From Spirochaetes bacterium ADurb.BinA120 (GTDB taxonomy: Bacteria > Spirochaetota > UBA4802 > UBA5368): a stretch of DNA of 64,000 bases. The notes under the pieces are model-generated. The model ran no database searches. It was not told where the DNA came from and saw nothing but the letters and a program-made list of their open reading frames with translations. Shown piece by piece: positions 6,848-33,389 of this stretch. Location: the NCBI GenBank assembly GCA_002069125.1, contig MVZN01000003.1, positions 1 through 64,000 on the forward strand. Direction: 5' to 3'. Within the stretch, counting starts at the first letter, position 1; every line of letters starts with the position of its first letter. The position numbers and the translations under genes were made by a program.

Positions 6848-6872
6848 ACACTTCACTGTCGGGGGAAACGCC

Positions 6873-7199: not shown

Positions 7200-7216
7200 C
7201 GCCCGGCCCGCCTCCC

Positions 7217-10551: not shown

Positions 10552-10734
10552 GGCTTACCTCCGTATATATCCGGCACTTTGGTCTTTCAAGTTGTCCCGG
10601 GCCTTCGAAGGCCTTCCTTAAAAATAAATGGGCCTTCGTAAGTCCCGGTGTGAGACAGAAACTCTATTATAAACGCCGATCCTTCCCTTAAAGGGTTGGC
10701 GGCGATATGTTCATCAAATCAACTCCTATATTTC

Positions 10735-10762
10735 AGTATATTATAAGATGCTAAAAAGTCAA
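10735..10762 (-). promoter_or_regulatory. sigma70-like promoter of the 46-codon gene
   Basis: On the minus strand TTGACT (10762-10757), 16 bp, TATACT (10740-10735). The leader to the ATG at 10551 is about 175 bases. It contains the perfect palindrome GGCCTTCGAAGGCC near 10600 and a partial repeat of it near 10632, which could fold and control expression. No gene is seen on the plus strand in 10552-10817. Confidence 0.65.
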
Positions 10763-10817
10763 GCCTCTTCGAAAAAATAATTGCAAAATTTGCGGTAATT
10801 AAAACAATTATATATCT

Positions 10818-11951: not shown

Positions 11952-12961
11952 GCCCAAAACGTCCCCGAAGGCTCGACGACATAGCGCGAACGTGCGGAGT
12001 ATCGGCCAGCACCGTCTCGCGCGTGCTGTCCAACGCCCCCGGCATCTCCGCCGGCACCCGGCGAAGGGTGCTCGAGGCGGTGGAGGCCTGCGATTTTTCC
12101 CCACGCAAGAGGAAGCGCCATATAAGCAGGAGCGCCATTCGCATTACAGTCGTAATCCCCGGGCGCCAGCGCCTGGCCACAAACCCCTTCTTCGACCCCG
12201 GCGAGTTGGTCGTGGCCATCAACAACGCCTTCGGCGATGTTCCGCGCGAGGTTTCGCTTCTCACCTACGAGGATCTGGGTGCCCCTACCGGCCTGCCGGG
12301 CCCCGGCGCCGACGGGTTCATCTTCGCCTTCGGTGAGATCGACGACTCCATGCGCGGGCTCCTTCGGGGGGCCGACATCCCGTACATATTCCTTAACCGC
12401 GTCCGCCAAGGCGAAAGCTACGTCTCGTGCAATAACTTTAAGGGCATGCTTCGCCTGGGGAGGCACCTTGCGGAGCGCTCTTACCGTCGCGTGGGCTATC
12501 TGGGCTGCGCCGACAACGTCATCGACATTGACCGCTACCGTGGCTTTGCGGTGGCCATGACCGAGGCAGGCCTTTCGGATTTCAAAGCGAACGTCTACCG
12601 CGCCGCCGAGATCGCATCGGTGGACGGGAGGGCGGCCGCCTTCTTCAAGGAGAGGCGCTGCGACGCGGTGATGTGCTTTAACGACAATTTCGCCATCCGC
12701 CTCATCTCGCATTTCCGCGACATGGGACTTCACGTTCCGGGCGATGTCGCCGTTACCGGTTTCGACCGCTCGCCCGCACAGGCGCTCTTCCGGCCCTCCA
12801 TAACGACCATCAGCCTCTCGACCTACGAGATGGCTTTTCTCGCCGCGCGCTGGCTTCGCGACAACATCGAACAGCGGGAGGCTCGAATCATGCGCCTGGA
12901 GGTGGAGGGCGCGTTTATAGAGGGGGATTCTGTAGGGTGGAGGAGGGTCCGCGATGCCTGA
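11948..12961 (+). CDS. LacI-family transcriptional regulator
   Basis: 337 residues; the start overlaps the upstream stop as ATGA. The N-terminal helix-turn-helix RLDDIARTCGVSASTVSRVLSN (about residues 8-29) and hinge helix RRRVLEAVEACDFSPRKRKR are canonical. A periplasmic-binding-protein-like sensor domain follows (GADGFIFAFG, YIFLNRV, RVGYLGCADN, DAVMCFNDN, PGDVAVTGFDRSP). It should sense a sugar or sugar acid and control the surrounding catabolic genes. Its place inside the operon suggests autoregulation. The effector cannot be read from sequence. Confidence 0.92.
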   Translation: MSPKRPRRLDDIARTCGVSASTVSRVLSNAPGISAGTRRRVLEAVEACDFSPRKRKRHISRSAIRITVVIPGRQRLATNPFFDPGELVVAINNAFGDVPREVSLLTYEDLGAPTGLPGPGADGFIFAFGEIDDSMRGLLRGADIPYIFLNRVRQGESYVSCNNFKGMLRLGRHLAERSYRRVGYLGCADNVIDIDRYRGFAVAMTEAGLSDFKANVYRAAEIASVDGRAAAFFKERRCDAVMCFNDNFAIRLISHFRDMGLHVPGDVAVTGFDRSPAQALFRPSITTISLSTYEMAFLAARWLRDNIEQREARIMRLEVEGAFIEGDSVGWRRVRDA

Positions 12962-13742
12962 GCGCTCGGGAGCGGGAAAAGTCGCGCTGGTAACCGGCTC
13001 GACCGCCGGCATAGGCCGGGCCATGGCCCTCGCGCTCGCGGCCGAGGGCTTTTCGGTGGTGCTGAACGGCCGTCGCGCGGAGGCCGAGGCGAAGGCGGCC
13101 CTTTCCGAGGTGCGAAGCGCGGGAGGTGATGAAAATTCGTGCATCTACGCACGTGCGGACGTTTCGCTCGAGGCGGGCCGAGAGGCCCTCTTCGAGGCGG
13201 TGAGAGCGCGCTTCGGGCGGCTGGACGTTCTTGTAAACAACGCCGGGATAAGCACGGAAGGCCGGCGGGACATGCTCGATCTCACCGAGGAGGCGATGCT
13301 TCGCGTGCTCAGGACGAACCTAATAGGGCCGTTTCTGCTTAGCTCGCGATTTTCTGACCTCTTAATGAACGGGGAGGGGGCGCGCTATATGGTGAACATC
13401 TCCTCCATCTCGGCCTATCTTCCCTCGGTCAATCGCGCGGACTATTGCCTCTCCAAGGCCGGCATGGCCATGATGACGAAGCTGTTCGCGGCGCGCCTGG
13501 CCCCGTACGGCGTGCGCGTCTTCGAGATACGGCCGGGGATCGTCCGCACAGACATGACGGCGCCTGTGGCGGAGAGGTACGACAGGCTTATAGATGCCGG
13601 GCTCCTGCCGCTTGGCCGCTGGGGCGAGCCCGGGGACGTGGCGCGCGCCCTTGTGGCGGTGGTGCGAGGGCACCACGACTACTCAACGGGCGAGGTTATA
13701 AACGTGGACGGCGGGTTCCAAATAAGCCGCGGGGCCCTGTAG
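12954..13742 (+). CDS. short-chain dehydrogenase/reductase (3-ketoacyl-ACP-reductase-like)
   Basis: 262 residues, overlapping the LacI stop by 8 bases. The Rossmann cofactor motif TGSTAGIGRAMAL (residues 14-26), NNAGIS, the catalytic serines in MVNISSISAY, and YCLSK (the YX3K pair) are all present, with the end segment GEVINVDGGF. Such classical SDRs include KduD-type sugar-acid dehydrogenases, which fits the operon. The arginine of NGRRAE after the second strand suggests NADP(H) preference. The exact substrate is inferred from context only. Confidence 0.9.
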   Translation: MPERSGAGKVALVTGSTAGIGRAMALALAAEGFSVVLNGRRAEAEAKAALSEVRSAGGDENSCIYARADVSLEAGREALFEAVRARFGRLDVLVNNAGISTEGRRDMLDLTEEAMLRVLRTNLIGPFLLSSRFSDLLMNGEGARYMVNISSISAYLPSVNRADYCLSKAGMAMMTKLFAARLAPYGVRVFEIRPGIVRTDMTAPVAERYDRLIDAGLLPLGRWGEPGDVARALVAVVRGHHDYSTGEVINVDGGFQISRGAL

Positions 13743-13789
13743 CGGGCGCACGGCAGGGGCGCGCGGGAAAGGCCGTTTCGGAGGGCGGC

Positions 13790-13831
13790 ATGACGGATCG
13801 GGACAGGGCGAAATGGAAAAAACGCGCATAA
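13790..13831 (+). CDS. possible 13-residue leader/coupling ORF
   Basis: ATG at 13790 follows GGAGGG at 13780-13785, the best ribosome site in this gap, and encodes MTDRDRAKWKKRA. It ends at 13831 inside the next gene, whose ATG at 13813 is in another frame. Ribosomes leaving this ORF could reinitiate on the flavoprotein gene. It may equally be a chance ORF. Confidence 0.25.
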   Translation: MTDRDRAKWKKRA

Positions 13832-15807
13832 CGGCATCCGGGGCGGATGTCCCGCTCGTATCGCTAAGGGCCGCGGTCGCGGGATCGGGCGCGGCAGCGC
13901 TTAACGCGGCTGTGCACCTAAAGCGGCTCGGCGTGGACGACGTCGCCATTTTCACGGAGCGAATGGGCGCGGGCGTTTCGGCCAACGCCGGCTCGGACAA
14001 GCAGACCTACTACCGGCTCGACCCCTCCGGCGACTCGGTCCGCGGCATGGCGTCGCGCCTCTTCGCCGGCGGCTGTGTCCACGGCGATATAGCGCTGGTG
14101 GAGGCGGCCCTGTCGCTTTTAGAGTTTTACCATCTCGCCATCCTCGGCGTCGGCTTTCCCTTCGACCGCTACGGATCCTTCGCTTCCTATAGAACCGACC
14201 ACGACGAGCTTGCCCGGGGCTCCTCGGCTGGTCCAGACACCTCCATAATGATGTACCAGAGGCTTCGCGACGAGGCCGCGCTCCTCGGAGTCCCCGTGTT
14301 CGAGGGCCTTGGCATCGTTGATATCGTCGCTACGGGCGAACCCGCGGCCCGCCGGGCAGTGGGCCTCGTAGCCATGGGCGGGCCCAAGGATCTCGGCGGG
14401 CCATACGGCCTTACCGCCGTTCGGGCCGATTTTATCGTGCTCGGCACGGGCGGCCCCGGCGAGCTCTACGCCGACAGCGTCTATCCGCCCGGCCAGACCG
14501 GTACGCTCGGCGCCGCGCTCACCGCCGGCGCGGCGGCGCGGAACCTCTCCGAGTCCCAGTTCGGCATAGCCTCCAGGCGGCCGCGCTGGAACCTTTCGGG
14601 CTCGTACCAGCAGGCCCTGCCGCGCTATTACTCCACGTCACTCGACGGGAGCGACGAGCGCGAATTCCTCGCCGACTTCTTCCCGTCGCGGGAGGTTATG
14701 CTCCTTGCGCAGTTTCGCAAGGGCTACGAATGGCCGTTCGACGCTTTAAAGGTTTCCGATTACGGCTCATCTTGCGTTGACCTGCTGGTTTATTACGAGT
14801 CGGCAGTGCGTTCGCGCCGCGTCTTTGTCGATTACCGCGCGAACCCGTCGTTTTCCGGCGCCCCCCTTTCCATTCCGGACGAACTGCCCGCCGAGGCGAA
14901 GGAGTACCTGGGGCGCTCGGGCGCGCTCGAAAAGACGCCCGCGGAGCGGCTTATCGCGATGAACGCGCCCGCCTATGGGCTATTCCTTAAAAACGGCGTC
15001 GACCTCGCGCGCGAACCGCTGGAGATCGCCGTGTGCCACCAGCACGTCAATGGCGGGCTCTGCGGCGACATCTGGTGGGAGTCGAACGTGCGGAATCTCT
15101 TTCCGGTGGGGGAGGCCAACGGCTCGCACGGCGTGTACCGCCCCGGAGGCGCCGCGCTCAACGCGGGACAGGTCGGGGGGCTTCGCGCCGCCCAGATGAT
15201 AGCGCACCGGCACGCGGCAGGAGAGGCCCCCTCGGATAGCGAGGCCGAGGCTTACATCCGGGCGGCGCTCGAGGCCCGCCTGCTCGAATGCCGCAGGGCG
15301 CTTTCGTCCGAGCCCATGGACTGGCGCGACGAGCGCCAGCGATTAAAGCGGCGCATGTCCAGCGCCCTCGGCATACTGCGCGAGCCTTCCATAATAGAGC
15401 GGGCGCTCTCGGAAAACGCGGAGGCATTACAGCGCCACAGGGCTTCAGGCGTGGCCGGGCCGGAGGAGCTCCGCGACTATTTCGTAAACGCCGAACTCCT
15501 CGCCATGGAGCGCTGTTTTCTCGAGACCTCCAGCCTGGTGCTTGGAAGGATAGCGGGCGGACGCGGGTCCTACCTGGCCGGGGCGATCGGCGACTTTTTG
15601 GAAATCGACGCGAAGGGCAGGGCAAGCGCGCTACGCGGGCCGAAAATTGAGGCCATGGCGCTCGACGAGACGGTGGAGGTGGAGCTTTCGCCGGACGGCC
15701 GGCCGGTCGCGCGTGTCGTCGGGGTGCGCCCCGTGCCGGAGGAGGATGCCTGGTTCGAGCGGGTCTGGAGGGAACATCGTGACGGGAGCGTCTATGGGAC
15801 GGCGTGA
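13813..15807 (+). CDS. FAD-dependent oxidoreductase, fumarate-reductase/L-aspartate-oxidase-like
   Basis: 664 residues. The N-terminal dinucleotide motif is AAVAGSGAAALNAAVHLKRLG (from about residue 20) with ADFIVLGTGG mid-protein. The HVNGGLCGDIWWESNVRNLFPVGEANGSHG segment corresponds to the FAD-site HYxxGG motif of succinate dehydrogenase/fumarate reductase flavoproteins, and GAALNAGQVGGLRAA follows. A helical C-terminal domain ends the protein. There is no signal peptide or heme motif, so it is cytoplasmic and must use a soluble donor or acceptor. It probably oxidises or reduces a sugar-acid or C4-like substrate of the operon. The pairing with the Old Yellow Enzyme suggests handling of an unsaturated intermediate. 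The substrate is unknown. Confidence 0.82.
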   Translation: MEKTRITASGADVPLVSLRAAVAGSGAAALNAAVHLKRLGVDDVAIFTERMGAGVSANAGSDKQTYYRLDPSGDSVRGMASRLFAGGCVHGDIALVEAALSLLEFYHLAILGVGFPFDRYGSFASYRTDHDELARGSSAGPDTSIMMYQRLRDEAALLGVPVFEGLGIVDIVATGEPAARRAVGLVAMGGPKDLGGPYGLTAVRADFIVLGTGGPGELYADSVYPPGQTGTLGAALTAGAAARNLSESQFGIASRRPRWNLSGSYQQALPRYYSTSLDGSDEREFLADFFPSREVMLLAQFRKGYEWPFDALKVSDYGSSCVDLLVYYESAVRSRRVFVDYRANPSFSGAPLSIPDELPAEAKEYLGRSGALEKTPAERLIAMNAPAYGLFLKNGVDLAREPLEIAVCHQHVNGGLCGDIWWESNVRNLFPVGEANGSHGVYRPGGAALNAGQVGGLRAAQMIAHRHAAGEAPSDSEAEAYIRAALEARLLECRRALSSEPMDWRDERQRLKRRMSSALGILREPSIIERALSENAEALQRHRASGVAGPEELRDYFVNAELLAMERCFLETSSLVLGRIAGGRGSYLAGAIGDFLEIDAKGRASALRGPKIEAMALDETVEVELSPDGRPVARVVGVRPVPEEDAWFERVWREHRDGSVYGTA

Positions 15808-22277: not shown

Positions 22278-23792
22278 ATGGTCCCGAACATAATGACGAG
22301 AAAAACGAACCACAGGAACAAGACAATCCCGATCGTCATCGCGCTGTCCGCGGGTCTGGCGCTTGGCGGAGCGGTAAGGGCGGCCTTTCTCCTCGACGAG
22401 GAGGCGCCGGCTCGCGTCGAAAAGGCCGAAAAGGCCCCGGTAGCGAAGCCGGCAAGCGAGTTTCCTCCGCACATCGCGACCAATATAAAGGCGCAGCCGG
22501 TGGCCGGGGTTCGCGGGGCGATACGGGTTAGTTGGGACGCCGACCCCACGGCGCCGAACGACTTTATAGTCGGGCGTTCATCGGAGGCGCCCGACACCTT
22601 CGAAAAGGCGCTGGCGGCAAAGTCTATAAAGATACTGCCGGCAGCCATGAACTCGAGCGTCATCGACAGCAATCTTCCGCCGGGCCGCTACTATTATGTG
22701 GTGCTGGCGCGCGAAAGGGTGATGTCCAGGGAAATTGAAATCTATCCGGATGTCAATTATACGGTAAATCCGGTTATTTTGGAAAGGGAGGAGCCTCTCT
22801 CCGGGCGCCCACTCCTTCCCGACCAGGTGACCCTCATCTACGCGCGGGTGGTCAACCAGACCCAGGTGGCGCTTAGCTGGAAGGGCGTCTCCGGGCAGGG
22901 TATCAGCTACAACATATACCGTGGTGCGGCGCCGCTTTCAAGCCCCGAAAAGATAAGGGGGGCCGAGCGCGTGGCCGTCGTTACCGACAGGCGGGAGGCA
23001 TACACGGACCGAGGAATTACGGCCACTGGCACCTATTATTACGCCGTTAGCACGAGCGACATGGCGGGTAACGAGGACCTCCAGCTCATACCGGAACAGA
23101 GCTACATGACCAAGGGCGTGTTCGTGGCCTTTATCTCGGAGGCAACGGTCTCCGGGCTCAGAGCGCGGCCGGAGGGCGATGGGAGCGTACGACTCACATG
23201 GAAGGGGATAGGTTCAAGCTCCGTCGAATACCTGGTGTACCGCTACGACAGGCCGATCACCGACGTACAGCGGCTCGCGCTCGCGGCCCACATAGGGGTC
23301 GTCCAGGCGGACGAAAGCGAGTTTACGGACGCAAGCCCCGGGCAGGGGGCGAACTATTACGCCGTGTTGGTGCGCCTGCGGGATTCGTCCATAGACAATA
23401 CCATCAAGGAGGGGAGCAACTGCACCCTCGATCCGGTATCGGCGGGCCGGGCTCCCGTAACGCGTAAAAGGCCGGCGGCCCGCATGGAGCCACCGCCAGG
23501 AAAGGAGACGCCGCGCCGCTCGCCCGTCGAAACAGGGACCGTGGACGCGGTGCTCCGGGAGACCTTCTTCCGTGAAAGGTACCCCCTGGCGCTCAGGCGT
23601 CTCGAGGAGGTGGCGCGTTCCTCGACTAACGAGGCCGAGGTCGCCAAGGCGCGCCTTTTCATGGGCCGCTCGCTTGTCGAGATGCGGAGGTACCGAAAAG
23701 CGATCGATTACTTCCTGATGCCCGACGTCAGGAGGCATTTCCCGAAGGAGGCGGAGTTCTGGAGGGAATACGCCATTTCGAGGACACGTTGA
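22278..23792 (+). CDS. membrane-anchored or exported protein with fibronectin-III-like domains
   Basis: 504 residues. A hydrophobic segment at about residues 17-37 serves as signal or anchor. Three Fn3-like beta-sandwich repeats follow at about 55-155, 165-280 and 285-395, each with the alternating pattern RVSWDAD/ALSWKGVSG/RLTWKGIGS and YYYVVLAR/YYYAVSTSD/YYAVLVRL. A Pro/Arg-rich linker then leads to a C-terminal helical repeat (about 430-500; ALRRLEEVARSSTNEAEVAKARLFMGRSLVEM) like a TPR. It likely sits in the periplasm as a binding scaffold. It precedes a TPR membrane protein and the filament locus. No specific function is recognised. Confidence 0.7.
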   Translation: MVPNIMTRKTNHRNKTIPIVIALSAGLALGGAVRAAFLLDEEAPARVEKAEKAPVAKPASEFPPHIATNIKAQPVAGVRGAIRVSWDADPTAPNDFIVGRSSEAPDTFEKALAAKSIKILPAAMNSSVIDSNLPPGRYYYVVLARERVMSREIEIYPDVNYTVNPVILEREEPLSGRPLLPDQVTLIYARVVNQTQVALSWKGVSGQGISYNIYRGAAPLSSPEKIRGAERVAVVTDRREAYTDRGITATGTYYYAVSTSDMAGNEDLQLIPEQSYMTKGVFVAFISEATVSGLRARPEGDGSVRLTWKGIGSSSVEYLVYRYDRPITDVQRLALAAHIGVVQADESEFTDASPGQGANYYAVLVRLRDSSIDNTIKEGSNCTLDPVSAGRAPVTRKRPAARMEPPPGKETPRRSPVETGTVDAVLRETFFRERYPLALRRLEEVARSSTNEAEVAKARLFMGRSLVEMRRYRKAIDYFLMPDVRRHFPKEAEFWREYAISRTR

Positions 23793-23879
23793 GCGCAGGG
23801 CGGCGATAACGCCCCGCCTAACTTCCGATACGGTCCGGGCGGAAGGGCGGCGCCATATACAAGGTGAGGAGATTCACTG

Positions 23880-25118
23880 ATGAAACCCAAACTGATTGTA
23901 GGCATACTGCTTGTGGCGCTTGGAGCCGGGGTTTTCGTATACAACGAAAGCTATCTCAGGCCCGAGCGCGAGGCGCGCGAAATGATGGTAGAGGCCAAAA
24001 TGATCTACGAGCGCGGGGACAAGGACTCCATAAACCAGGCCATCAACATATTCACGAAGGTGATAGCCAAATATCCCTCATCCCGACTGATCCCCGAGGC
24101 GTATTACCTCATCGGGCAGTGTTACGAGCGCATGGGCCTCAACCGGCTCGCGTTTCTAAAATACAGCTATCTTATCAAGAACAATCATCCCCATCTCTCC
24201 GCGGATTTAAGGAAGGAGGTGATGATAAGGCTCGCCAGGCTCAACGTGCTCAAGCAGTACAACGAGGAGGGCATAAACCAGCTTTACGCCCTGCTCAGCG
24301 CCAATTACAACAGGGACCTCCGCAGCCGCATCTATTCGGAGCTCGGCCACACCTACCTGCGCCTCGGGGAATACCAGCGCTCCAGGAGGATGTTCGACAT
24401 AGCGCTCGCCGAGAACGGAACTAACGAGGAGGCCCTGGTCGGCAAGGCGCGCGCCTTCAAGCGTCTGGGCATGGACGACGACGCGTACGACACCTATGAA
24501 TATTTCCTGCGCTATTACGGCGCGGTAAGCCAGTACGCCTCGGATGTCCGCTCGGCATACAGGGACCAGGCCTATAAAAGCGGCCTCGACGCCTTCCGGA
24601 AGGGGAGCTACGAACGCGCCATATCGTATCTGGGCCGTGTTTTAAAGAATTTTCCGGACGATCGTCTCGCCGAAAACGCCATGTACTGGATCGGCGAGAG
24701 CAATTTCGCCCAGCGCCGGTTCGACACCGCCATTTCGTGGTTCAACAGGGTGCTTTCCAACTCCCAGTACAACAAGGACCAGGATGCCCAGATAAAGAAG
24801 GGATACGCCTATTTTCTAAGCAAGCGCTTTGACCTCGCCGCCCGGGAGTTTCAGACCTATCTTAAAAATTATCCCGCCGGCCGGCACGCGGCGACCGCCC
24901 GCGAATGGAAGAGCATGAGCACAAGGGAGCTCCTTTACAGGATAGAGGGAAAGAAGGCCCCTGACGAGTCGGACGAGGACGAGGCCGAAAGTCCGGCCGA
25001 GCCCGCCGGCAAAAAGCCCGGACCGCACGTCGGAAGCGACGAGGAGGTCGCCGGCGAATACGGTGAGGACGACGCCGACGGCGGAAAAATAGAACTTGAA
25101 AATGTCGCGGAATTGTAA
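23880..25118 (+). CDS. membrane-anchored TPR protein with acidic tail
   Basis: 412 residues behind a strong GGTGAGGAG site. A membrane anchor occupies residues 5-21. At least seven TPR-like helical pairs follow (for example INIFTKVIAKYPSSRLIPEAYYLIGQCYERMG and AISYLGRVLKNFPDDRLAENAMYWIGESNF), the latter resembling the tol-pal YbgF/outer-membrane-assembly lipoprotein repeats. The last 55 residues are very rich in Asp and Glu (ESDEDEAESPAEP, EYGEDDADGG) and probably disordered. It would act as a protein-interaction scaffold at the inner membrane facing the periplasm. Confidence 0.75.
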   Translation: MKPKLIVGILLVALGAGVFVYNESYLRPEREAREMMVEAKMIYERGDKDSINQAINIFTKVIAKYPSSRLIPEAYYLIGQCYERMGLNRLAFLKYSYLIKNNHPHLSADLRKEVMIRLARLNVLKQYNEEGINQLYALLSANYNRDLRSRIYSELGHTYLRLGEYQRSRRMFDIALAENGTNEEALVGKARAFKRLGMDDDAYDTYEYFLRYYGAVSQYASDVRSAYRDQAYKSGLDAFRKGSYERAISYLGRVLKNFPDDRLAENAMYWIGESNFAQRRFDTAISWFNRVLSNSQYNKDQDAQIKKGYAYFLSKRFDLAAREFQTYLKNYPAGRHAATAREWKSMSTRELLYRIEGKKAPDESDEDEAESPAEPAGKKPGPHVGSDEEVAGEYGEDDADGGKIELENVAEL

Positions 25119-25241: not shown

Positions 25242-25979
25242 ATGTTTACGAAATACTTCGAGGACGTCCAGAAACAGCTCGTCAAGGCGCGCCCGGGCTC
25301 CCAGTCAAAAACCCGGGCCCGGGGAAAGACTGCGTCGAAATCGGGCAAAACCGCGCCGGCGGCCGCCCAATTGGACCCCGGCGGACTTATTAAAATAATG
25401 GAGGGCCTCGTGCCGCCCAAGCTCTGCCTGGGCACGCTCGGCGTCATCGATCCCAGCGGCTACTCCCCGGAGGGGGTCGACTTTGTCGCTTACCGTCCGC
25501 TTTGCAGGGACATGGCCGCGCTCATGGGAGGCTACGCGCCGTCGGAGCTGGTATACGGTACATATCACCTCTGTGGCGACATAGGCAGGGAAAACCTGCA
25601 GGCTGCCCTTAACAGTGTAGTGCAGGCGAAGAAGCTCAACCTGTTCACAGAGGACCGCCAGGAGTATCCCGCCATTCCCGCCTTTATCGTAAGCGCCGGC
25701 GGCGGCATGCGCCTTGAAGAAATAAAGGAATCCATTCTCGATTATTATGTTTCGAAGAGCGTGGATTATGCGCTCGAGTTCGACGTGCTCATGATACTCG
25801 ACAAGGGCCTCGTGGTAAAAAACTGGCGCGAGAAGAGGAGCTTCATCGCGCTCGAAACCGGAGCCGCCACGCTCATGTGGTTCTTCATCCTCATGCACGA
25901 GTATCTGGATATCGAGCGAGGCGGGAGCCTCGATCTCAGGAATTACGTAAAATACACGGAAAAGTACGCTGAGTACTGA
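25242..25979 (+). CDS. conserved-looking protein of unknown function (245 residues)
   Basis: Soluble, no signal peptide. The first 45 residues are basic and low-complexity (KARPGSQSKTRARGKTASKSGKTAPAA); a globular domain follows. It starts GGLIKIMEGLVPPKLCLGTLGVIDPSG and contains GVDFVAYRPLCRDMAALMGG and a hydrophobic strand EFDVLMILDKGLVVKNW. The pattern faintly recalls DUF6602 nuclease-fold proteins (GTG-x-vID, D-x-vaY), but the family's lysine motif is not evident, so I leave it unnamed. It lies just upstream of the VWA gene but is separated from it by a hairpin and a promoter. Confidence 0.7.
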   Translation: MFTKYFEDVQKQLVKARPGSQSKTRARGKTASKSGKTAPAAAQLDPGGLIKIMEGLVPPKLCLGTLGVIDPSGYSPEGVDFVAYRPLCRDMAALMGGYAPSELVYGTYHLCGDIGRENLQAALNSVVQAKKLNLFTEDRQEYPAIPAFIVSAGGGMRLEEIKESILDYYVSKSVDYALEFDVLMILDKGLVVKNWREKRSFIALETGAATLMWFFILMHEYLDIERGGSLDLRNYVKYTEKYAEY

Positions 25980-26171: not shown

Positions 26172-27299
26172 GTGAAAGAGCGAAAACTGGGACGGATTTC
26201 CCCGCTGGGATTGTTCTTCGCGGGCCTGCTTTCTTTTATCTTGGTGATGCCGGGCGTCTGTGCGGCAAGGGAACGAAAAGACATGATCCTTGTCCTGGAC
26301 ACCTCCATGAGCATGATAGGCAGCGGTGGCCGGAATATTATGGCCGGGGTAAAGGAGGGGCTCGACAGGTTTATAGATCAGCTCGAGGAGGGTGACAGTT
26401 TCACCTTCATCACCTTCGATACGGAAGTAAAGCTGTACCCGGTCGTCTACATCCACGGCAAGAACGACAAGGACATACTCAAAAAATACCTCTCCATGGT
26501 CGAGGCCAGGGGGCTTTGGACTTACACACAGGAGATGCTCCGTAACGTGTTCAGAAAGGCCCAGGAGCTCGAGGAGAAGGACAAGGGGCGCCAGAGGGTG
26601 ATAGTCGTGTTGACCGACGCCCTGGACGATCCGCCCCCGGGGCGGCGCCATGAGCGCTTCGACATCAATAAGGTGGCCAAACAGTACAACAACAAGGACT
26701 GGTTCATCTTTCTCGTCAATCTCGGAGATCTGGAAACAAGCAGGAAGATCGAGAAAACGAAAAAGGACATAAAGGAGAGCGTTTCGCCATACACCAAGGT
26801 GGTCGACGCGACCGAGGCCCCCGGAAAGGTGATAGAGAAACAGCTGATGCAGGATGTGCGGGACATGTCCGCGGCGCGCCGCGAAGACGAAAAAACCTTC
26901 CTCTCCAGCCCATGGTTCATTGCCCTCATCGCGTTGTTGGCGCTTGCGGCCATTTTTATATTGGTGCGCCGATACCGGGCGCTTCGGGTCAACGGCGTTC
27001 TGGATTACTGGAACAACGCCATACTGGATCCGTATATAAATACAGCGAACCTCACCCGTCAGGGGAGCCGCAAGGTCCTCATCGGACGGGGCGGCGGCTG
27101 TGCGGTGAACATAAGGGACATAGAGATAGCCGAGCCGTTTACCATCGTCGCGGAGAGGGACAAGGGTGTGATAAAGTGCGCCCTGCAGTGGGGCAATAGT
27201 TATACAATCGAGTTTCAGAACGGAGTACGGGGCGAATACCTCAAGGACGGCGATGTCTTCAAGGTGGCCAACTACACGTTCAAGTACAGTATCGACTGA
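26172..27299 (+). CDS. von Willebrand factor A-domain membrane protein with FHA-like cytoplasmic tail
   Basis: 375 residues, GTG start behind GGAGAGG. A signal peptide (about residues 1-31, ending VCA-A) precedes a periplasmic VWA domain with the MIDAS motif DTSMS at residues 43-47 and the second aspartate in VVLTDALDD. A membrane helix lies at about 247-267 (FIALIALLALAAIFILV). The cytoplasmic C-terminal 105 residues contain KVLIGRGGGCAVNIRDIEI and YLKDGDVFKVANYTFKY, which follow the strand pattern of FHA domains but lack the usual Ser/His pair. It sits directly before cfpA, so a link between envelope and filament is a reasonable hypothesis. From memory, T. pallidum also has a VWA gene (TP0750) near cfpA. 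Confidence 0.85.
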   Translation: MKERKLGRISPLGLFFAGLLSFILVMPGVCAARERKDMILVLDTSMSMIGSGGRNIMAGVKEGLDRFIDQLEEGDSFTFITFDTEVKLYPVVYIHGKNDKDILKKYLSMVEARGLWTYTQEMLRNVFRKAQELEEKDKGRQRVIVVLTDALDDPPPGRRHERFDINKVAKQYNNKDWFIFLVNLGDLETSRKIEKTKKDIKESVSPYTKVVDATEAPGKVIEKQLMQDVRDMSAARREDEKTFLSSPWFIALIALLALAAIFILVRRYRALRVNGVLDYWNNAILDPYINTANLTRQGSRKVLIGRGGGCAVNIRDIEIAEPFTIVAERDKGVIKCALQWGNSYTIEFQNGVRGEYLKDGDVFKVANYTFKYSID

Positions 27300-27355
27300 C
27301 TGGCGAAAAGGGGATGTATTTTGGCAAAAAATTTGATTTAATTTGAAATAAAGCC

Positions 27356-27383
27356 TTGACATCGCATAAAGCGCTGATACACT
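27356..27383 (+). promoter_or_regulatory. sigma70-like promoter of cfpA
   Basis: TTGACA (27356-27361), 16 bp, TACACT (27378-27383), giving an mRNA leader of about 117 bases before the ATG at 27508. It is separate from the VWA promoter and fits strong expression of an abundant structural protein. Confidence 0.72.
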
Positions 27384-27507
27384 CGCGGCGGCATTTCGTG
27401 ATGAAACGAGAATCCCCCCGGGTGAAGAGCGTGACATTATATAAAGGTTCATAATTCGAGCGGGGGCGATTTAATAAGTCCGCAGCAGAAAAAAAGGAGG
27501 TTTTTAC

Positions 27508-29466
27508 ATGTCGATAACTCAATTACCCAAGAGCCCGAATAAATTTCATCCCACCGAGCCGAGTGCGGTCGGGTCGAGGAATTCGATCGCTCAGGAGGGG
27601 CGCGACAAAATCGCCGAATCGAAGCTTCTCATCGACGAAGCGTCGGACAAGGTGCTGAACACCATCATGACCAAGCTTCCCGAAGAGGTCCTCGCAAAAC
27701 TCGACGTGATGGGCGGCCTTAAAGAGAAGATATACAACTATGTGAACCAGTCGTACGTGAACATGGCCAACCGCTACACGGTCACCATGGAGGACGAATT
27801 CATTAAAAAGGTCCGCGACTTCGTCGACAAGGAAGAGGCGAAAGGCCTGGCCCGATACACCTCCAGGGAGGTGGTCGAGCTGCTCGACAAGATCGGCGGC
27901 GCCGACAAGTTCAACACCGGCGAGATCGAAAAGTCCATGGTCAACATGTACGGACACCTCCAGGGCCACATCCAGCGGGGAATGAACGACCTCGAGAACG
28001 AGACCAACGCCATACTCCGCCAGAAAACGGACGTCGGCGCGTTCGTCCGCGGTGAGAACGCCTACGCGATCATCAAGTGTATCTTTAAGGACAATCAGCT
28101 CCGGCCCAAATACGTTTACGACGTCAAGCTGTCGATAAACATACTCGACAGCGAGCTTGTAAGCCCCATCTATCACTACCAGGTGACAGTGGAGTCGCTC
28201 CTTAAAGACGCCATCCAGAAACACATTCAGGACCTCATCGAAAAGCAGGTCATGATTCTCACCGAGGAGCTTGTCGACCAGGGCAAGAGCGAGCTCTCCG
28301 GCTCCGAGATCATGTTCGAGAAGATCAAGAGGATCGAAAATTTCACCGACGACGACAAGGAAGACGAGAAGTCCCGCCGATATACCATCCTCGCGAAGAA
28401 GTTTCTGGACAAAATCGAAGGGCTCCGCGCCGAGATCGACGTGGAGGAATACGATCCGCTTAACATCCGCGAGAACATCAAGCATATCATTGACTCCGAA
28501 AACATCAGAAACCGCGGCTACAATACGGCGATCAACGCCCTCACCTCGATTCTGGACACCTCCAAGCTCGGATACCAGGTATGCGACAACATGAAGAACG
28601 CGCGCATATGCCAGATTCGGGAATACGAGGAGCTCGACCGGACCATCCTGCCGGATGAGCGCTACGCCATAAGGCTCGCCTATTACGACCAGAACCAGCT
28701 GCGCGAGGAGAAACGCGAGTTCGACCGCCAGATGGAGGCCTTTACGAGGGAGATCCTCAGGGCATGGGACGTTGTGCACGCCCATTACGAGTCCAAGAAA
28801 CGCTTCCGTTCCCTCAAGGATTTCGACGACCTCTGCAATCGTCTCATGAGCAAGGAGTGGAGGCGCGGCAAGAAGGAAGAGGAGGCCGATCCCAACAACG
28901 TTCTCTGGAACGAGATCGGCGAGATGTATAACGAGGGAAGCTTCGTCGAGAAGAACAACAGGACCTATGAGGACAGGATCCTCAACTTGAAGAACAAGCT
29001 GAAGTACCTCAGGGAGATCCTCCAGAACATGCACGGGTATCAGAACCCGATCGAGCGTGTCATTCTCGACGAGCGCCTGAGCTTCCTCGACAGGAAGTTC
29101 AACGAATTCACCTACAAGATCAACCCGCACCACATTCAGCCCGGGCTTATCCTCGATGTCGACGTAACGACGATCAAGAGGAAGCAGTACATGCTTAAGG
29201 GCATGGCGAACGTGCTCAACGAGTTCCTGTACGGCATATCGAAGGGCTTTGCCGACGCGGCGTTCGCGCAGTTCAAGCGCAGAAGGTCCACCGTTCGCGA
29301 GGACATATCCCAGTCTTTCGGCGAGCAGGAGATGAAAGAGGACATCTTCGAGGCCGCGTACAAATCGGCTTCCGGTTCCGGGGAATCCTCGGAGGTCAAG
29401 GGATCCATCGATCTCTCGCCCCGCGCGAAACCCAAGGGGAAGGCATCGGGGCTCAAAGAGCTGTAA
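27508..29466 (+). CDS. cfpA: cytoplasmic filament protein A
   Basis: 652 residues. The N-terminal half matches treponemal CfpA very closely in remembered motifs: AVGSRNSIAQEG, KVLNTIMTKLPEEVL, YTVTMEDEFIKKVRDFVDKEE, GADKFNTGEIEKSMVNMYGH, HIQRGMNDLENETN and RQKTDVGAFVRGENAYAI. The rest is highly charged and predicted to be helical/coiled coil, with an Ala/Gly/Lys-rich end. CfpA polymerises into the ribbon-like cytoplasmic filaments under the inner membrane of spirochaetes and is needed for normal cell division in Treponema. A very strong AAAGGAGGT ribosome site and a dedicated promoter and terminator point to high expression. The T. pallidum protein is slightly longer (about 680). Confidence 0.96.
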   Translation: MSITQLPKSPNKFHPTEPSAVGSRNSIAQEGRDKIAESKLLIDEASDKVLNTIMTKLPEEVLAKLDVMGGLKEKIYNYVNQSYVNMANRYTVTMEDEFIKKVRDFVDKEEAKGLARYTSREVVELLDKIGGADKFNTGEIEKSMVNMYGHLQGHIQRGMNDLENETNAILRQKTDVGAFVRGENAYAIIKCIFKDNQLRPKYVYDVKLSINILDSELVSPIYHYQVTVESLLKDAIQKHIQDLIEKQVMILTEELVDQGKSELSGSEIMFEKIKRIENFTDDDKEDEKSRRYTILAKKFLDKIEGLRAEIDVEEYDPLNIRENIKHIIDSENIRNRGYNTAINALTSILDTSKLGYQVCDNMKNARICQIREYEELDRTILPDERYAIRLAYYDQNQLREEKREFDRQMEAFTREILRAWDVVHAHYESKKRFRSLKDFDDLCNRLMSKEWRRGKKEEEADPNNVLWNEIGEMYNEGSFVEKNNRTYEDRILNLKNKLKYLREILQNMHGYQNPIERVILDERLSFLDRKFNEFTYKINPHHIQPGLILDVDVTTIKRKQYMLKGMANVLNEFLYGISKGFADAAFAQFKRRRSTVREDISQSFGEQEMKEDIFEAAYKSASGSGESSEVKGSIDLSPRAKPKGKASGLKEL

Positions 29467-29485
29467 ACTCGGTAATTTCGAAATT

Positions 29486-29519
29486 AAAAAGGGGCGCCTG
29501 CGAGGGCGTCCCTTTTTTT
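29486..29519 (+). terminator. rho-independent terminator of cfpA
   Basis: AAAAAGGGGCGCC (29486-29498) pairs with GGGCGTCCCTTTTT (from about 29504) and runs into seven Ts ending at 29519. It lies 20 bases after the cfpA stop. The rest of 29520-29771 is an AT-rich spacer with the next promoter and no gene. Confidence 0.85.
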
Positions 29520-29648
29520 GCTCGTCGAAGGGGAGAAGTTTAAAGTATATTGGAATAGCCGGGTTATAGGAATGGCGGGAAGCGAGCCCCGGAGGGCTGA
29601 CCGAAACAATGGAGCTAAATTGGCGCCTGCCCTAATATTTTCCGGCAG

Positions 29649-29693
29649 TTGACAAAATGCTTGCATTTATTGCAAAATAATCCACATTATACA
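29649..29693 (+). promoter_or_regulatory. candidate promoter region of the 304-residue gene
   Basis: TTGACA at 29649-29654 is clear; the -10 is ambiguous (CAAAAT at 29673 with an 18-bp spacer, or CATTAT at 29685 behind TTGCAT at 29661). The region is strongly AT-rich and contains the short inverted repeat TTGCA/TGCAA. Confidence 0.5.
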
Positions 29694-29771
29694 TTGCCGT
29701 GACCTGGATGGCGCGGCTGTCCCTCATATAAAGGTTTATTGATGAAAAAATTACCATAAGGAGTCTGACCA

Positions 29772-30686
29772 ATGGAAAGCGCTTTTTATTCGCTTGCGAC
29801 CAGGAGCAATTTCAACAAGGCACTGAACCACTTCTTCAAGGTCAACGAAATCGTCGATTACCTGGATTCTAAAAGAAACCTGGCCGATGTCATAAACGCC
29901 GATCTGGACCAGAATGAAATACTGACCGACCAGATACTGCCGATCGTCGGTGCAGTAATCCGCGACAAGTACCAGTATTCGTACGATTCCTACAACGTAC
30001 ACGACACGGTTACGGATTTTACGAAAATATCCGCGGAAACCGCCAAGTGGACGGCCCTCGACATCCTCATCGTCTATTATACACCCTCGGGAGAGACAAC
30101 ACTTGTCAATCCCAAGAACCAGGCGCACTGGGAAAGGGTGCGCGAGCTTGGAAAGGACCAGGCGATGGTGATATACGCGCGCCATCTCAAGGAGCCGAAG
30201 GATTCAAAAATAGAACAGGAGGCGATCGCGGCCATAGAGGAAATGATCTCCGGAAAAGACGTATTTATCAACAAGGAGTTCATCGACCAGACTGTGGCGC
30301 CAAAGGTAGAAGCGCCAAGGCCGACACCGCAGGCGGCGGCCGTAGCGGCCGGGCAGAGAAGGATGACGCCCAAGTATTCGGTCCAGGTGACCAACGAGCT
30401 TTTTCATAATGGAAACGTCGAGGCGTGGAAGCGTATCATTGAAAGCTACAAGGTTTCGCATCCCGACCTCGAAGTGATGATCTTTTACGAAAACGAGCTC
30501 ATCAACGACATCAACACCCTTTTCAAGTGGGGGAAGGTGAAAACCGGCGGTTTGATATTCTTTCAGATCTCGGGCGAAAACATACGCAACGTTTCCAAGT
30601 TGCAGAAATATCTTTTCGAGGGCGCAAGCCCCCGCTTCGAACAGTTCCTCAAGCTGGGCGTCGGCAAAGTCCTAAAGCTCTTCTAA
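29772..30686 (+). CDS. uncharacterised protein of the filament locus (304 residues)
   Basis: Soluble protein with AAGGAG upstream of the ATG and no signal or membrane segment. The N-terminal domain (1-165; NKALNHFFKVNEIVDYL, ILTDQILPIVGAVIRDKYQYSYDSY) looks helical/alpha-beta. An Ala/Pro/Arg linker (about 176-200) follows, then a C-terminal domain (TPKYSVQVTNELFHNGNVEAWKRIIESY, PDLEVMIFYENELINDINTLFKWGK). I recognise no family. It lies between cfpA and the PPDK-like gene, and from memory an uncharacterised gene (TP0747) holds the same place in T. pallidum, which suggests a conserved role with the filament or the PPDK-like protein. Confidence 0.85.
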   Translation: MESAFYSLATRSNFNKALNHFFKVNEIVDYLDSKRNLADVINADLDQNEILTDQILPIVGAVIRDKYQYSYDSYNVHDTVTDFTKISAETAKWTALDILIVYYTPSGETTLVNPKNQAHWERVRELGKDQAMVIYARHLKEPKDSKIEQEAIAAIEEMISGKDVFINKEFIDQTVAPKVEAPRPTPQAAAVAAGQRRMTPKYSVQVTNELFHNGNVEAWKRIIESYKVSHPDLEVMIFYENELINDINTLFKWGKVKTGGLIFFQISGENIRNVSKLQKYLFEGASPRFEQFLKLGVGKVLKLF

Positions 30687-30741
30687 AGGGCTGACACGCG
30701 GAAAAGGACCGGACAAGGAATATTAAAGGGAGAGTTGAACA

Positions 30742-33333
30742 ATGGAAAACATAGTTTATTTCAACAAGGACCTCAAGGATCTCGACGAGAAGACAAAGAA
30801 AAGGCTGGGCATAAGGGGAAGGCGCGCGGTCGAGCTTGCGATGATGGGCCTGCCGATAGCCCCGGGATTTATAATCGATTCGGAGCTTACCCGGAAGCTA
30901 CCCCAGGTAAACCTGAAGGAATTCCTGAAGACCCATATCGATCATCTCGAAAAGGAGACCAAAAAGGGATACGGCGACTCGAAAAAGCCCCTGCTTCTTA
31001 AAGTTGTACTGAGTTCGGATTTCAACGTTCCGTATTTCCCCTCAATACATAATATCGGCCTTAACGACAAGACCGTCACCGGATTCGGCCAGTTTACGGG
31101 CCTTGATTTCGCGTACGGCGAATACAGTTTTCTGCTGAGGAGCATGGGGACCAAAATCTACAGCCTGGAGGCCGCGGACTTCGACAAGATGGACGTTAAG
31201 GGCGGCAAACAGAAGGCTGAGGACATTAAAAAGGCCGTCGATAACTTCAAGAAGTACCTTGGCGACAAGTTCAGTGAGGACGTTTACGACCAGCTCAGCC
31301 TCATCCTGAAGGGGGCGGCCTCGCGGTACTGCGATTCGGAGATTGACGTGGACAACTCGCTTTCGATCATGGTACAGGCGATGGTGTACGGCAATTTCGG
31401 CAACAACTCCTATTCGGGCAATTACTACACGCGCAATATCATCACCGGGGATCCGGTAATCCAGGGCAATTTTCTCCAGAATGCCTTCGATATCGACAAG
31501 AGCAAGCCCAAGGATATCACAAAAATCGATAAAAAATACTTCGACAAGTTTTCGGATATCGCGAAGAAGGTCGAGGAGCAATTCAAGGAGATAAGGGAGA
31601 TCAAGTTTACGATCGAAGAGGGCGATTTCTGGCTGGTCGAGCAGCGCGATGTCGATGAAAAATCGACCCAGGCGCACATTAAGACCCTGCTGGACCTCTG
31701 CAAGCGCAAGAGCGTTTCCGAGGAATACGTGGTGTCCAATATTAAACCGGCGCAGCTCAACGAGCTTCTTCACCCGGTAATCGACCCTCGGACAATCGGC
31801 GGCGTAAAGACCATAAAAGGCGGTATCTCCGGTTCGACCGGGGCGGCGATCGGCAGAGTGTTCTTCTCTACGCCGAAACTGCTCGAAGAGTATAAAAAGG
31901 CGATAATGCACGGCGGCGACACAAACATGATACTGGTGATGCCCGCCAGCTACGCCGAGGATGTTAAGGCTATCGAGGTGGCCAGGGGCGTCATCACCTC
32001 CGAGGGCGGATTCTCTTCGCACGCGCCGGTGGTGGCCCGAAGCCTTGGCAAGGTCGCGATGGTCCAGCCGGAGATGAAAATACGGGGGACCACCTTCACC
32101 CTGGCCGGGAAAACGGTCAAGGAGGGAGACTACGTTTCGATCAATGTTCCCTACTACGAGCCTCCAACGATCTATCTGGACAAGGTCGGCCTTATAGAGC
32201 CCAATGTAAAGGAAAACGGATTGATCGATTTCCTCCAACTGGTCGAGAATTTCATCGACGATTTCGACGTCCGCGCCAACGCCGACCAGGGCCGAGACGC
32301 GAAGCTGGCCCGCGAGTTCAACGCCGCCGGCATCGGGCTGTGCCGTACGGAGCATATGTTCTTCAACGAGAAGCGAATCATGAAGTTCCGTGAGATGATT
32401 CTCGCCGAATCCGAGGAAGAGCGCAGAAAAACCCTCGAGGCGCTCAAGCCGATGCAGCGCTCCGACTACTACGAGCTGTTTAAGACCATGGTCGGCTATC
32501 CGGTGACCATCCGCCTGCTCGACGCGCCGCTGCACGAGTTTTTGCCGCGCACCGACGAAAGCATGAAGGAATTCATAAAGTACATGCAGGGCAGGAAGAA
32601 GGGCGTAAAGCCGGCCGAGATAGTGGCGCGCTGCGAGGAGCTGTCGGAGATGAATCCGATGCTCGGCCACCGCGGCTGTCGTGTGGCGATTACATATCCC
32701 GAGATCTACGAGATGCAATGCCGCGCCATTTTTGAGGCCGCCTGCATGCTCAGAAAGGAGGGAATAAAGGTCGAGCCGGAGATCATGATACCGATCGTCA
32801 TGACCGAACACGAATTGAAATTCATCAAGAACGGCAAGAGGATAGAGGGCAAGGTGGTAAAGGGGATCAGGGACATCAAGGACGAGGTGGTGCAGGAATA
32901 TGGCGTCGATGATCTCATTTACAGCGTAGGGACCATGATCGAGCTGCCGGCCGCCGCTCTCGGCTCGGGCTCCATCGCCCAGTACGCCGAGTTCTTCAGC
33001 TTCGGGACGAACGACCTCACGCAGACTACGTACGGCCTCTCGCGCGACGATATCAACTCCTTCTTCCCAAGCTATTCGCTCTACGACCTCATCCGCAACA
33101 ATCCCTTCCAGGTGCTCGGCGAACAGGTGAAGGAGCTCATCGAAGTGGCGGCCCTTCGCGGAAGGCTTACCCGCCCGGATATAAAGATGGGGCTGTGCGG
33201 AGAACACGGAGCGGACCCGGAGAACATCGAGTTCTGCATAAACGTCGGTTTGAATTACGTTTCCTGCAGCCCGTATTCGATACCGCTGGCCAAACTTGCC
33301 GTCGCGCAGTACAACCTCAAGCAGGAAGAGTAG
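30742..33333 (+). CDS. pyruvate phosphate dikinase-like protein with eroded nucleotide-binding domain
   Basis: 863 residues, close to the PPDK length of about 875. The central phosphohistidine domain has GGFSSHAPVVAR with His427. The C-terminal PEP/pyruvate barrel is intact: GLCRTEHMFF, GTNDLTQTTYGLSRDD and GLCGEHGADP with Cys819. The N-terminal ATP-grasp part is not normal. The usual RSGA...SMPGMMDT region reads KVVLSSDFNVPYFPSIHNIGLND, and the catalytic DIEFTI segment reads EIKFTIEEG. Phospho-transfer between His and pyruvate/PEP may remain, while ATP use is doubtful. It could be a regulator or use another phosphate donor. It is 55 bases after the 304-residue gene in the cfpA locus. Confidence 0.88.
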   Translation: MENIVYFNKDLKDLDEKTKKRLGIRGRRAVELAMMGLPIAPGFIIDSELTRKLPQVNLKEFLKTHIDHLEKETKKGYGDSKKPLLLKVVLSSDFNVPYFPSIHNIGLNDKTVTGFGQFTGLDFAYGEYSFLLRSMGTKIYSLEAADFDKMDVKGGKQKAEDIKKAVDNFKKYLGDKFSEDVYDQLSLILKGAASRYCDSEIDVDNSLSIMVQAMVYGNFGNNSYSGNYYTRNIITGDPVIQGNFLQNAFDIDKSKPKDITKIDKKYFDKFSDIAKKVEEQFKEIREIKFTIEEGDFWLVEQRDVDEKSTQAHIKTLLDLCKRKSVSEEYVVSNIKPAQLNELLHPVIDPRTIGGVKTIKGGISGSTGAAIGRVFFSTPKLLEEYKKAIMHGGDTNMILVMPASYAEDVKAIEVARGVITSEGGFSSHAPVVARSLGKVAMVQPEMKIRGTTFTLAGKTVKEGDYVSINVPYYEPPTIYLDKVGLIEPNVKENGLIDFLQLVENFIDDFDVRANADQGRDAKLAREFNAAGIGLCRTEHMFFNEKRIMKFREMILAESEEERRKTLEALKPMQRSDYYELFKTMVGYPVTIRLLDAPLHEFLPRTDESMKEFIKYMQGRKKGVKPAEIVARCEELSEMNPMLGHRGCRVAITYPEIYEMQCRAIFEAACMLRKEGIKVEPEIMIPIVMTEHELKFIKNGKRIEGKVVKGIRDIKDEVVQEYGVDDLIYSVGTMIELPAAALGSGSIAQYAEFFSFGTNDLTQTTYGLSRDDINSFFPSYSLYDLIRNNPFQVLGEQVKELIEVAALRGRLTRPDIKMGLCGEHGADPENIEFCINVGLNYVSCSPYSIPLAKLAVAQYNLKQEE

Positions 33334-33357: not shown

Positions 33358-33389
33358 AAAAAGGGAGGGGTAAAACCCCCTCCCTTTTT
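33358..33389 (+). terminator. rho-independent terminator of the PPDK-like gene
   Basis: Perfect 13-bp stem AAAAAGGGAGGGG (33358-33370) with CCCCTCCCTTTTT (33377-33389) around TAAAAC. It closes the filament locus. Confidence 0.88.

Follow-up and report, generated by a model that had tools for sequence, protein, structure and literature searches.

A three-gene cfpA–p304–PPDL module in Spirochaetota, with a proposed PEP-driven phosphotransfer pair

In genomes of Spirochaetota, the cytoplasmic filament gene cfpA is accompanied by two further genes, p304 and PPDL, and this cfpA–p304–PPDL gene module is well supported by both co-occurrence and gene order. Two features of the companion proteins are new here. 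PPDL, a protein derived from pyruvate phosphate dikinase (PPDK), has lost its ATP site with its PEP and histidine site retained, and the C terminus of p304 has a predicted HPr fold with an invariant histidine. Knowledge of CfpA filaments goes back decades, and in the literature that we searched we found neither a partner protein of CfpA nor any regulation of it. p304 and PPDL provide two specific candidates for filament partners across the whole phylum, together with a chemical hypothesis.

Conservation of the cfpA neighbourhood

The window (the whole stretch of 64,000 nucleotides that was analysed) contains four consecutive open reading frames, which encode a VWA-domain protein, CfpA, the 304-residue protein p304 and the PPDK-like protein PPDL (Table 1), as an earlier note on this DNA had described. 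The expression signals and closing terminator that it reported were also recovered, as consensus matches: promoter-like sites upstream of the VWA gene (26077), cfpA (27356) and p304 (29649), and a stem beyond PPDL. The CfpA of the window lies well above the equivalog cut-off of NF040882 (500 bits) and is an ordinary member of this family, which includes TP0748 and TDE0842; relative to known CfpA, the novelty lies in its dedicated partners. Its predicted structure was of low confidence (mean pLDDT 54.9) and was therefore not used.

Table 1 Features of the cfpA locus in the window
Feature	Position	Strand	Description
245-aa protein	25242..25979	+	companion of the VWA gene; clade-specific accessory; no Pfam match
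VWA-domain protein	26172..27299	+	hydrophobic segment at about residues 247-266, then C-terminal domain; PF00092 (Pfam search), 6.7e-11, 43.1 bits
CfpA	27508..29466	+	cytoplasmic filament protein; NF040882, 913.6 bits (profile search); single copy in the genome of the window (G000)
p304	29772..30686	+	companion protein, 304 aa; C-terminal domain predicted to be HPr-like; basis: co-occurrence, AlphaFold2 model, Foldseek
p304 HPr-like C-terminal domain (predicted)	30378..30683	+	residues 203-304; secondary-structure order, Foldseek; hhalign negative
p304 His212 codon	30405..30407	+	candidate phosphorylation site; invariant (107/107); immediately before helix 213-229
PPDL	30742..33333	+	PPDK-derived; ATP-grasp domain degenerate, His and PEP domains intact
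PPDL His427 codon	32020..32022	+	catalytic His455 of C. symbiosum PPDK by alignment; kept in 100/100
PPDL Cys819 codon	33196..33198	+	Cys831 of the PEP/pyruvate site by alignment; kept in 100/100
Terminator-like stem	33367..33379	+	3' end of the module; consensus scan only

We surveyed 150 Spirochaetota genomes, of which 61 encode CfpA and 89 do not. p304 and PPDL occur together in 60 of the 61 CfpA-positive genomes, and none of the 89 CfpA-negative genomes has either. Correlated gain and loss with cfpA had been set beforehand as a test of the proposed partnership, and the two genes track CfpA throughout the phylum. Gene order is similarly stable. Among 80 named loci, retrieved by p304 alone, cfpA is upstream of p304 in 70 of 73 and PPDL is downstream of p304 in 78 of 79; the conservation of neighbours on which the note made its proposal depend is borne out in named genomes. 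Both genes persist even in genomes with a dispersed locus. One family (f29) retains all three genes on different contigs, and another (f2) retains the p304–PPDL pair separate from cfpA. The core of the locus is three genes: cfpA, p304 and PPDL.

Published data on Treponema bear on the same genes. In T. denticola, TDE0842-44 are repressed together (PMC3914990), and a set of 16 major envelope proteins includes TDE0844 (PPDL) as well as CfpA (PMC3931704). Because the envelope fraction contains further proteins, this co-fractionation is no proof of binding. The main text of the T. pallidum interactome does not mention the p304, PPDL or CfpA proteins, and TP0747 is absent from the T. pallidum hypothetical-protein and modelling papers that we examined.

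Residues lost and retained in PPDL

PPDL shares with PPDK (TIGR01828; C. symbiosum 1dik/1kbl) a three-domain architecture and the His, Cys and PEP-site residues, but it has lost ATP-grasp catalytic residues, forms a separate clade and is linked to cfpA. The protein of the window scores 714.1 bits against TIGR01828, under the equivalog cut-off of 843.45 bits. The ATP-site residues K22, R92, E323 and R337 are missing from 100 of 100 PPDLs and present in 23 of 24 canonical PPDK rows, the exception being a doubtful open reading frame. The phosphohistidine and PEP-site residues H455, R561, R617, E745, N768, D769 and C831 are retained in all 100 PPDLs. Within the ATP domain, Q240 and S251 are kept, as is Q335 under one alignment. 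In a tree that excluded one canonical row (L182, a wrong or odd open reading frame), PPDLs form a single clade apart from true PPDKs (SH-aLRT 100). Mean identity among PPDLs is relaxed in the ATP domain (43%) and tight in the His (64%) and PEP (67%) domains; the corresponding values for true PPDKs are 58, 54 and 57%. Loss of PPDK chemistry is well supported by these residues, and PPDL seems unable to use ATP, yet fitted to accept phosphate from PEP.

These observations call into question the standard view of TP0746, the T. pallidum orthologue of PPDL (L032), as the glycolytic PPDK of the syphilis agent. TP0746 is annotated and discussed in papers as a glycolytic pyruvate phosphate dikinase, and papers rely on this reading in accounting for mutations and expression data. 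The annotation is not supported by the residues of TP0746; we rejected the glycolytic reading of PPDL and TP0746 on that basis, and TP0746 is probably misannotated. It is very improbable, in our estimate, that PPDL is nevertheless a working metabolic PPDK, as annotated, and that gene order reflects co-expression only. Such an enzyme would suit T. pallidum, in whose genome TP0746 is the sole PPDK homologue and we found neither a pyruvate kinase nor a working PPDK besides TP0746, and it would agree with published usage and with the retention of Q240, S251 and, in one alignment, Q335. However, four ATP-site residues are lost from every PPDL, a canonical PPDK is also present in most PPDL-bearing genomes, pyruvate kinase occurs in 11 of the 12 genomes tested, and PPDL is strictly tied to CfpA. 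T. pallidum also has GTP-PEPCK and oxaloacetate decarboxylase beta, a possible alternative route.

The p304 C terminus and a possible phosphotransfer pair

Searches with p304 returned no match above cut-off in Pfam or NCBIfam, and a sequence search of the PDB likewise gave nothing useful. In an AlphaFold2 model, the C terminus has strands and helices in the order found in HPr, and HPr structures are the main Foldseek matches of the model (probability up to 0.99, TM 0.5-0.66, with E-values of only 0.05-0.3), suggesting an HPr-like fold for this domain. His212 is predicted to start helix 1, as expected of a phosphorylatable histidine; it is invariant in 107 of 107 sequences and occupies the position of HPr His15. 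The motif around it is also very highly conserved. Unlike HPr, p304 has no PF00381 match by Pfam search and lacks Arg17, having H-N-G-N instead of H-x-R-P, with Gly214 at His+2 in all 107 sequences. Because p304-C aligned with spirochaete HPr by hhalign no better than shuffled controls did, we claim no HPr homology, only a predicted fold and a possible analogous function. The earlier note missed both this predicted domain and the loss of the PPDL ATP site, which together give its 'likely partners' a hypothesis that is specific and can be tested.

We give about even weight to the reading that cfpA, p304 and PPDL form one functional unit, in which the filament has a phosphotransfer pair dedicated to it and driven by PEP; the pair would be PTS-like, analogous to EI–HPr but PPDK-derived. 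PPDL would be a PPDK descendant that has lost the ATP/AMP/PPi half-reaction. Most likely, the phosphoryl group of PEP would pass to the histidine of its swivelling domain, which is the job of PTS Enzyme I, and from there to p304 His212 in the HPr-like domain instead of to AMP/PPi. Either phosphorylation of p304, or binding of PEP or pyruvate by PPDL, could then set the assembly, bridging or membrane anchoring of CfpA filaments, and the state of the filament would follow the cellular PEP:pyruvate state. We infer the phosphotransfer, its direction and its control of CfpA from a PPDL that appears fitted for PEP and a p304 tail shaped like a phosphocarrier, a combination that may couple the filament to the energy state of the cell.

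In the proposed scheme, phosphate moves from PEP to a histidine of the enzyme and on to a histidine of the carrier, as it does with Enzyme I and HPr of the PTS. Enzyme I has His and PEP domains homologous to those of PPDL, and the fold of HPr resembles that predicted for p304-C. Unlike Enzyme I, PPDL has a degenerate ATP-grasp domain and no match to PF05524, the N-terminal HPr-binding domain of EI, in a Pfam search. True EI and HPr coexist with the pair in every genome tested, which counts against the proposal, as do the missing Arg17, the hhalign result and the high Foldseek E-values. A precedent for a PPDK that has left central metabolism for a different task in phosphotransfer is mycobacterial VadK (Rv1127c), which has ATP-binding and kinase (His) domains (PMC13400623). 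PPDL would be its mirror image, with the His and PEP parts kept and the ATP site lost. If correct, the proposal would give VadK a mirror-image counterpart, a PPDK converted to signalling, and would reveal a second way of arriving at a pair of the EI/HPr kind.

Instead of transferring phosphate, PPDL and p304 could be purely structural: PPDL would be an inactive dimer derived from PPDK and p304 an adaptor with an HPr fold, the two forming bridges and membrane anchors of the filament. We regard this as rather unlikely, although the lost ATP site, the very high conservation around His212, which extends over a whole surface-like motif rather than the histidine alone, and the presence of PPDL and CfpA in the same envelope fraction would all fit it. 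Bridging and anchoring components also feature in the title of a 2004 tomography paper (cited in PMC3398590), and we found no protein name for them in the literature searched. A structural role gives no evident reason to retain all PEP-site, His and Cys residues in 100 of 100 PPDLs while the ATP site goes. Less probable still is that PPDL phosphorylates the cell's ordinary HPr, senses PEP by binding it, or does both, with p304 a mere docking platform on the filament. The retained PEP/His site and the presence of a true HPr in 22 of 22 genomes tested are compatible with this, but p304 carries an invariant histidine at the HPr position and, because a true EI is also present in every genome tested, ordinary HPr already has a donor.

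The proposed phosphotransfer between PPDL and p304 leads to a wider proposal, which we hold tentatively: a bacterial cytoskeletal filament that has a PEP-powered phosphorelay of its own, in which a PPDK without its ATP chemistry acts as the Enzyme I analogue beside an HPr-like protein and assembly or anchoring is coupled to the PEP:pyruvate state. As a corollary, TP0746 would be no glycolytic PPDK, and the last glycolytic step would proceed differently, for example through PEPCK and oxaloacetate decarboxylase.

The VWA gene and its companion

The VWA gene belongs to the locus only in the order of the window and in one deep family (f30). It adjoins cfpA in the 29 CfpA-positive genomes of that order and is near cfpA in f30, whereas no VWA orthologue was detected near cfpA in families f8, f10, f21, f24, f28, f31, f36 and f38. 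We therefore rejected it as a phylum-wide member of the module, having detected none near cfpA outside this order and f30. The expectation that the flanking proteins are likely filament partners holds, by co-occurrence and synteny, for p304 and PPDL, and does not extend to the VWA protein, which lies outside the phylum-wide core.

The gene order that the note gives for T. pallidum divides in the same way. PPDK, unknown protein and CfpA match (L032, which is G049:C1), but the VWA part does not: TP0750, of 223 amino acids, is on the opposite strand and divergently transcribed, and its weak similarity to the VWA protein of the window (24% over 123 amino acids) is confined to the generic VWA domain. 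A four-gene module of VWA, CfpA, p304 and PPDL acting jointly in all of these spirochaetes accounts for the adjacency in the order of the window and in f30, but the families without a detected orthologue and the arrangement of TP0750 make it the least credible of the readings considered here. The VWA protein is a clade-specific candidate for a membrane anchor. The gene for the 245-amino-acid protein pairs with the VWA gene, occurring upstream of cfpA in the order of the window and downstream of p304 in f30.

The cfpA neighbourhood

An ORF check of the window confirmed the positions of four genes that the earlier note had read as one module: a VWA protein, CfpA, a 304-residue protein (p304) and a pyruvate phosphate dikinase (PPDK)-like protein, here PPDL. 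CfpA is an equivalog member of NF040882 (913.6 bits), the VWA ORF matches PF00092, and the family-profile search returned no family match for p304. PPDL matches PPDK models, with a TIGR01828 score (714 bits) below the cut-off (843 bits). Promoter-like sites 5′ of the VWA gene, cfpA and p304 are consensus matches only, as is a terminator-like stem 3′ of PPDL, the last gene of the module. A 245-aa gene just upstream of the VWA gene travels with it; an FN3-like and a TPR gene farther upstream are conserved together with the 245-aa gene in several families of the window's taxonomic order (f1, f2, f5 and f7), and are perhaps a further envelope-associated group. In a low-confidence model of the window CfpA, a helix–three strands–helix pattern is seen twice (residues 138–257 and 317–428), which hints at internal duplication.

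Coordinates of features in the window and at other loci
Feature	Sequence	Position	Strand
FN3-like and TPR genes	window	22278-25118	
245-aa gene	window	25242-25979	
cfpA	window	27508-29466	
p304	window	29772-30686	+
PPDL	window	30742-33333	+
GAF-GGDEF gene	L042 (f30)	12757-13797	
Large protein upstream of cfpA	L037 (f28)	6514-9177	
Large protein upstream of cfpA	L038 (f10)	12254-14575	
TP0750 and TP0751	L032 (T. pallidum cfpA locus)	10715-12133	

Among 150 evenly drawn Spirochaetota genomes, 61 encode CfpA; p304 occurs in 60, all CfpA-positive, and PPDL in the same 60 (at least 821 bits; among CfpA-negative genomes the top PPDK-like score is 574 bits). Fisher's p for co-occurrence with CfpA, which ignores phylogeny, is ~1e-41. 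Only one CfpA-positive genome, G104, lacks p304 and PPDL. Because other members of its genus carry these two together on a contig different from that of cfpA, the simplest reason is a contig missing from the assembly. All three genes are retained on different contigs in family f29, and p304–PPDL lies apart from cfpA in f2; the link is thus more than operon inertia. In f24, to which the T. pallidum-like G049 belongs, the triad is present in four genomes, and the examined genomes of genera g56 and g62 gave no CfpA or p304 match. We consider it almost certain that cfpA, p304 and PPDL form a functional module.

With only the C-terminal domain of p304 as query, a search across 84,980 GTDB species yielded 344 relatives, the best 80 of which were retrieved, with titles naming spirochaetes or unclassified bacteria. 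Among these best 80, cfpA is upstream of p304 in 70 of the 73 loci with enough flank and PPDL downstream in 78 of 79, with median gaps of 15 bp and 35 bp, respectively. Leptospirales-labelled MAGs and f30 have the 245-aa/VWA pair and other genes, including a GAF-GGDEF gene, between p304 and PPDL. At the f30 locus this (diguanylate cyclase) gene is immediately 5′ of PPDL, and a 670-aa protein without a Pfam match follows the VWA gene. Five loci from Leptospiraceae- or Leptospirales-labelled MAGs (L134, L142, L150, L160 and L162) carry cfpA and p304 followed by the 245-aa/VWA pair; PPDL is present in four. The large protein directly upstream of cfpA in f28 and f10 has a C-terminal LysM match, weak in the latter.

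The VWA gene adjoins cfpA throughout the CfpA-positive genomes of the window's order and is near it in f30; it was not detected beside cfpA outside these groups. The T. pallidum VWA protein TP0750, 223 aa long, is encoded on the opposite strand, and its 24% identity to the window protein covers the generic VWA domain only. The T. pallidum order given in the earlier note therefore holds for three genes (PPDK, unknown protein and CfpA), not four. In T. pallidum, TP0750 and TP0751 (pallilysin), host-interacting proteins according to the literature, are arranged head to head with cfpA.

ATP and PEP sites of PPDL

Aligned with Clostridium symbiosum PPDK, the window PPDL carries the substitutions K22R, R92V, D321E and E323K, and its SGTG loop is altered. 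In all 100 PPDLs compared, K22 is Arg, R92 is lost and E323 is replaced by Lys, Arg, Met or Thr. R337 is also lost in 100 of 100 by MAFFT; a HMMER alignment of the window protein shifts this stretch by one residue, so that R337 is kept and Q335 lost. H455, R561, R617, E745, N768, D769 and C831 are retained in every PPDL, and canonical spirochaete PPDKs retain them all. Roles of K22, D321 and R337 in PPDK were reportedly described by Ye et al. in 2001, a study that PMC13400623 cites. Arg95 and Glu324 of plant PPDK, which seem to correspond to R92 and E323, are described as directly involved in ATP binding (PMC5507339). Mean identity among PPDLs is lowest in the ATP-grasp domain (43%, versus 64% for His and 67% for PEP), whereas in true PPDKs (58, 54 and 57%) that domain is not the lowest. 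A tree built from the His and PEP domains groups all PPDLs in one clade (SH-aLRT 100). We are highly confident that PPDL has lost the ATP chemistry of PPDK, and it probably retains the PEP chemistry. PPDLs of f8 and f21 (L039, L040 and L051) are ~100 residues longer, with N-terminal halves too divergent for BLAST alignment; to judge from sequence, their former ATP domain is rebuilt further.

Papers describe TP0746 as a glycolytic enzyme that makes ATP from PEP. The published coordinate of a TP0746 SNV (810772) falls inside the PPDL ORF of G049, taken as T. pallidum, and this protein, like every other PPDL, has lost its ATP-site residues. PPDL is the only PPDK homologue in G049 at the threshold used, and neither a pyruvate kinase nor a canonical PPDK was found in this genome. 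Because G049 encodes GTP-PEPCK and oxaloacetate decarboxylase beta, T. pallidum could possibly convert PEP to pyruvate via oxaloacetate, and the accepted view of how its glycolysis ends may have to be revised.

In T. denticola, TDE0842–44 (CfpA, hypothetical, PPDK) are repressed jointly in co-culture (PMC3914990); TDE0844 was identified as PPDL by its gene order and annotation, not by sequence. The envelope fraction of the same species had 16 major bands, including TDE0844 (band 1) and CfpA (band 3); in the passages of that paper on this fraction, the presence of CfpA is ascribed to membrane anchoring and 'PPDK' draws no comment (PMC3931704). Such a location would be unexpected for a soluble glycolytic enzyme.

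p304 and a possible phosphoryl relay

A likeness to HPr, the PTS phosphocarrier, was first seen by eye in the p304 sequence (TNELFHNGNVEAWK...LFKWGKVKxGxxIxFQVxGE). In an AlphaFold2 model, residues 202–292 form strand-helix-strand-strand-helix-strand-helix-helix, with His212 seven residues past strand 1 and just before helix 1 (213–229). His15 of HPr has the matching position relative to its strand 1 and helix 1. HPr structures are the main group of Foldseek matches in the PDB (probability up to 0.99, TM 0.5–0.66), with weak E-values (0.05–0.3). His212 is invariant in 107 of 107 sequences; unlike HPr, with Arg17 in its active centre, p304 has no equivalent of this residue. An HPr-like fold is very likely on the strength of the model. 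Because a profile comparison with HPr gave no support, we limit the claim to this predicted fold and a possibly analogous function, and do not claim HPr family membership.

We propose that a phosphoryl group would pass from PEP to the PPDL His and thence to His212, and that phosphorylated p304 would alter filament assembly, bridging or anchoring. We give the transfer from PPDL to p304 about an even chance, and control of CfpA by it is a more tentative suggestion. Enzyme I (EI) of the PTS, whose His and PEP domains are homologous, works on the same principle, but has an HPr-binding domain where PPDL has a degenerate ATP-grasp domain; this relic may now dock p304. There is precedent in VadK, a PPDK turned kinase (PMC13400623), and in E. 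coli, where cell size is influenced by the PTS and by PEP/pyruvate levels (PMC13426487). The genomes tested also encode a true EI and a true HPr, so PPDL–p304 would be a second, private relay.
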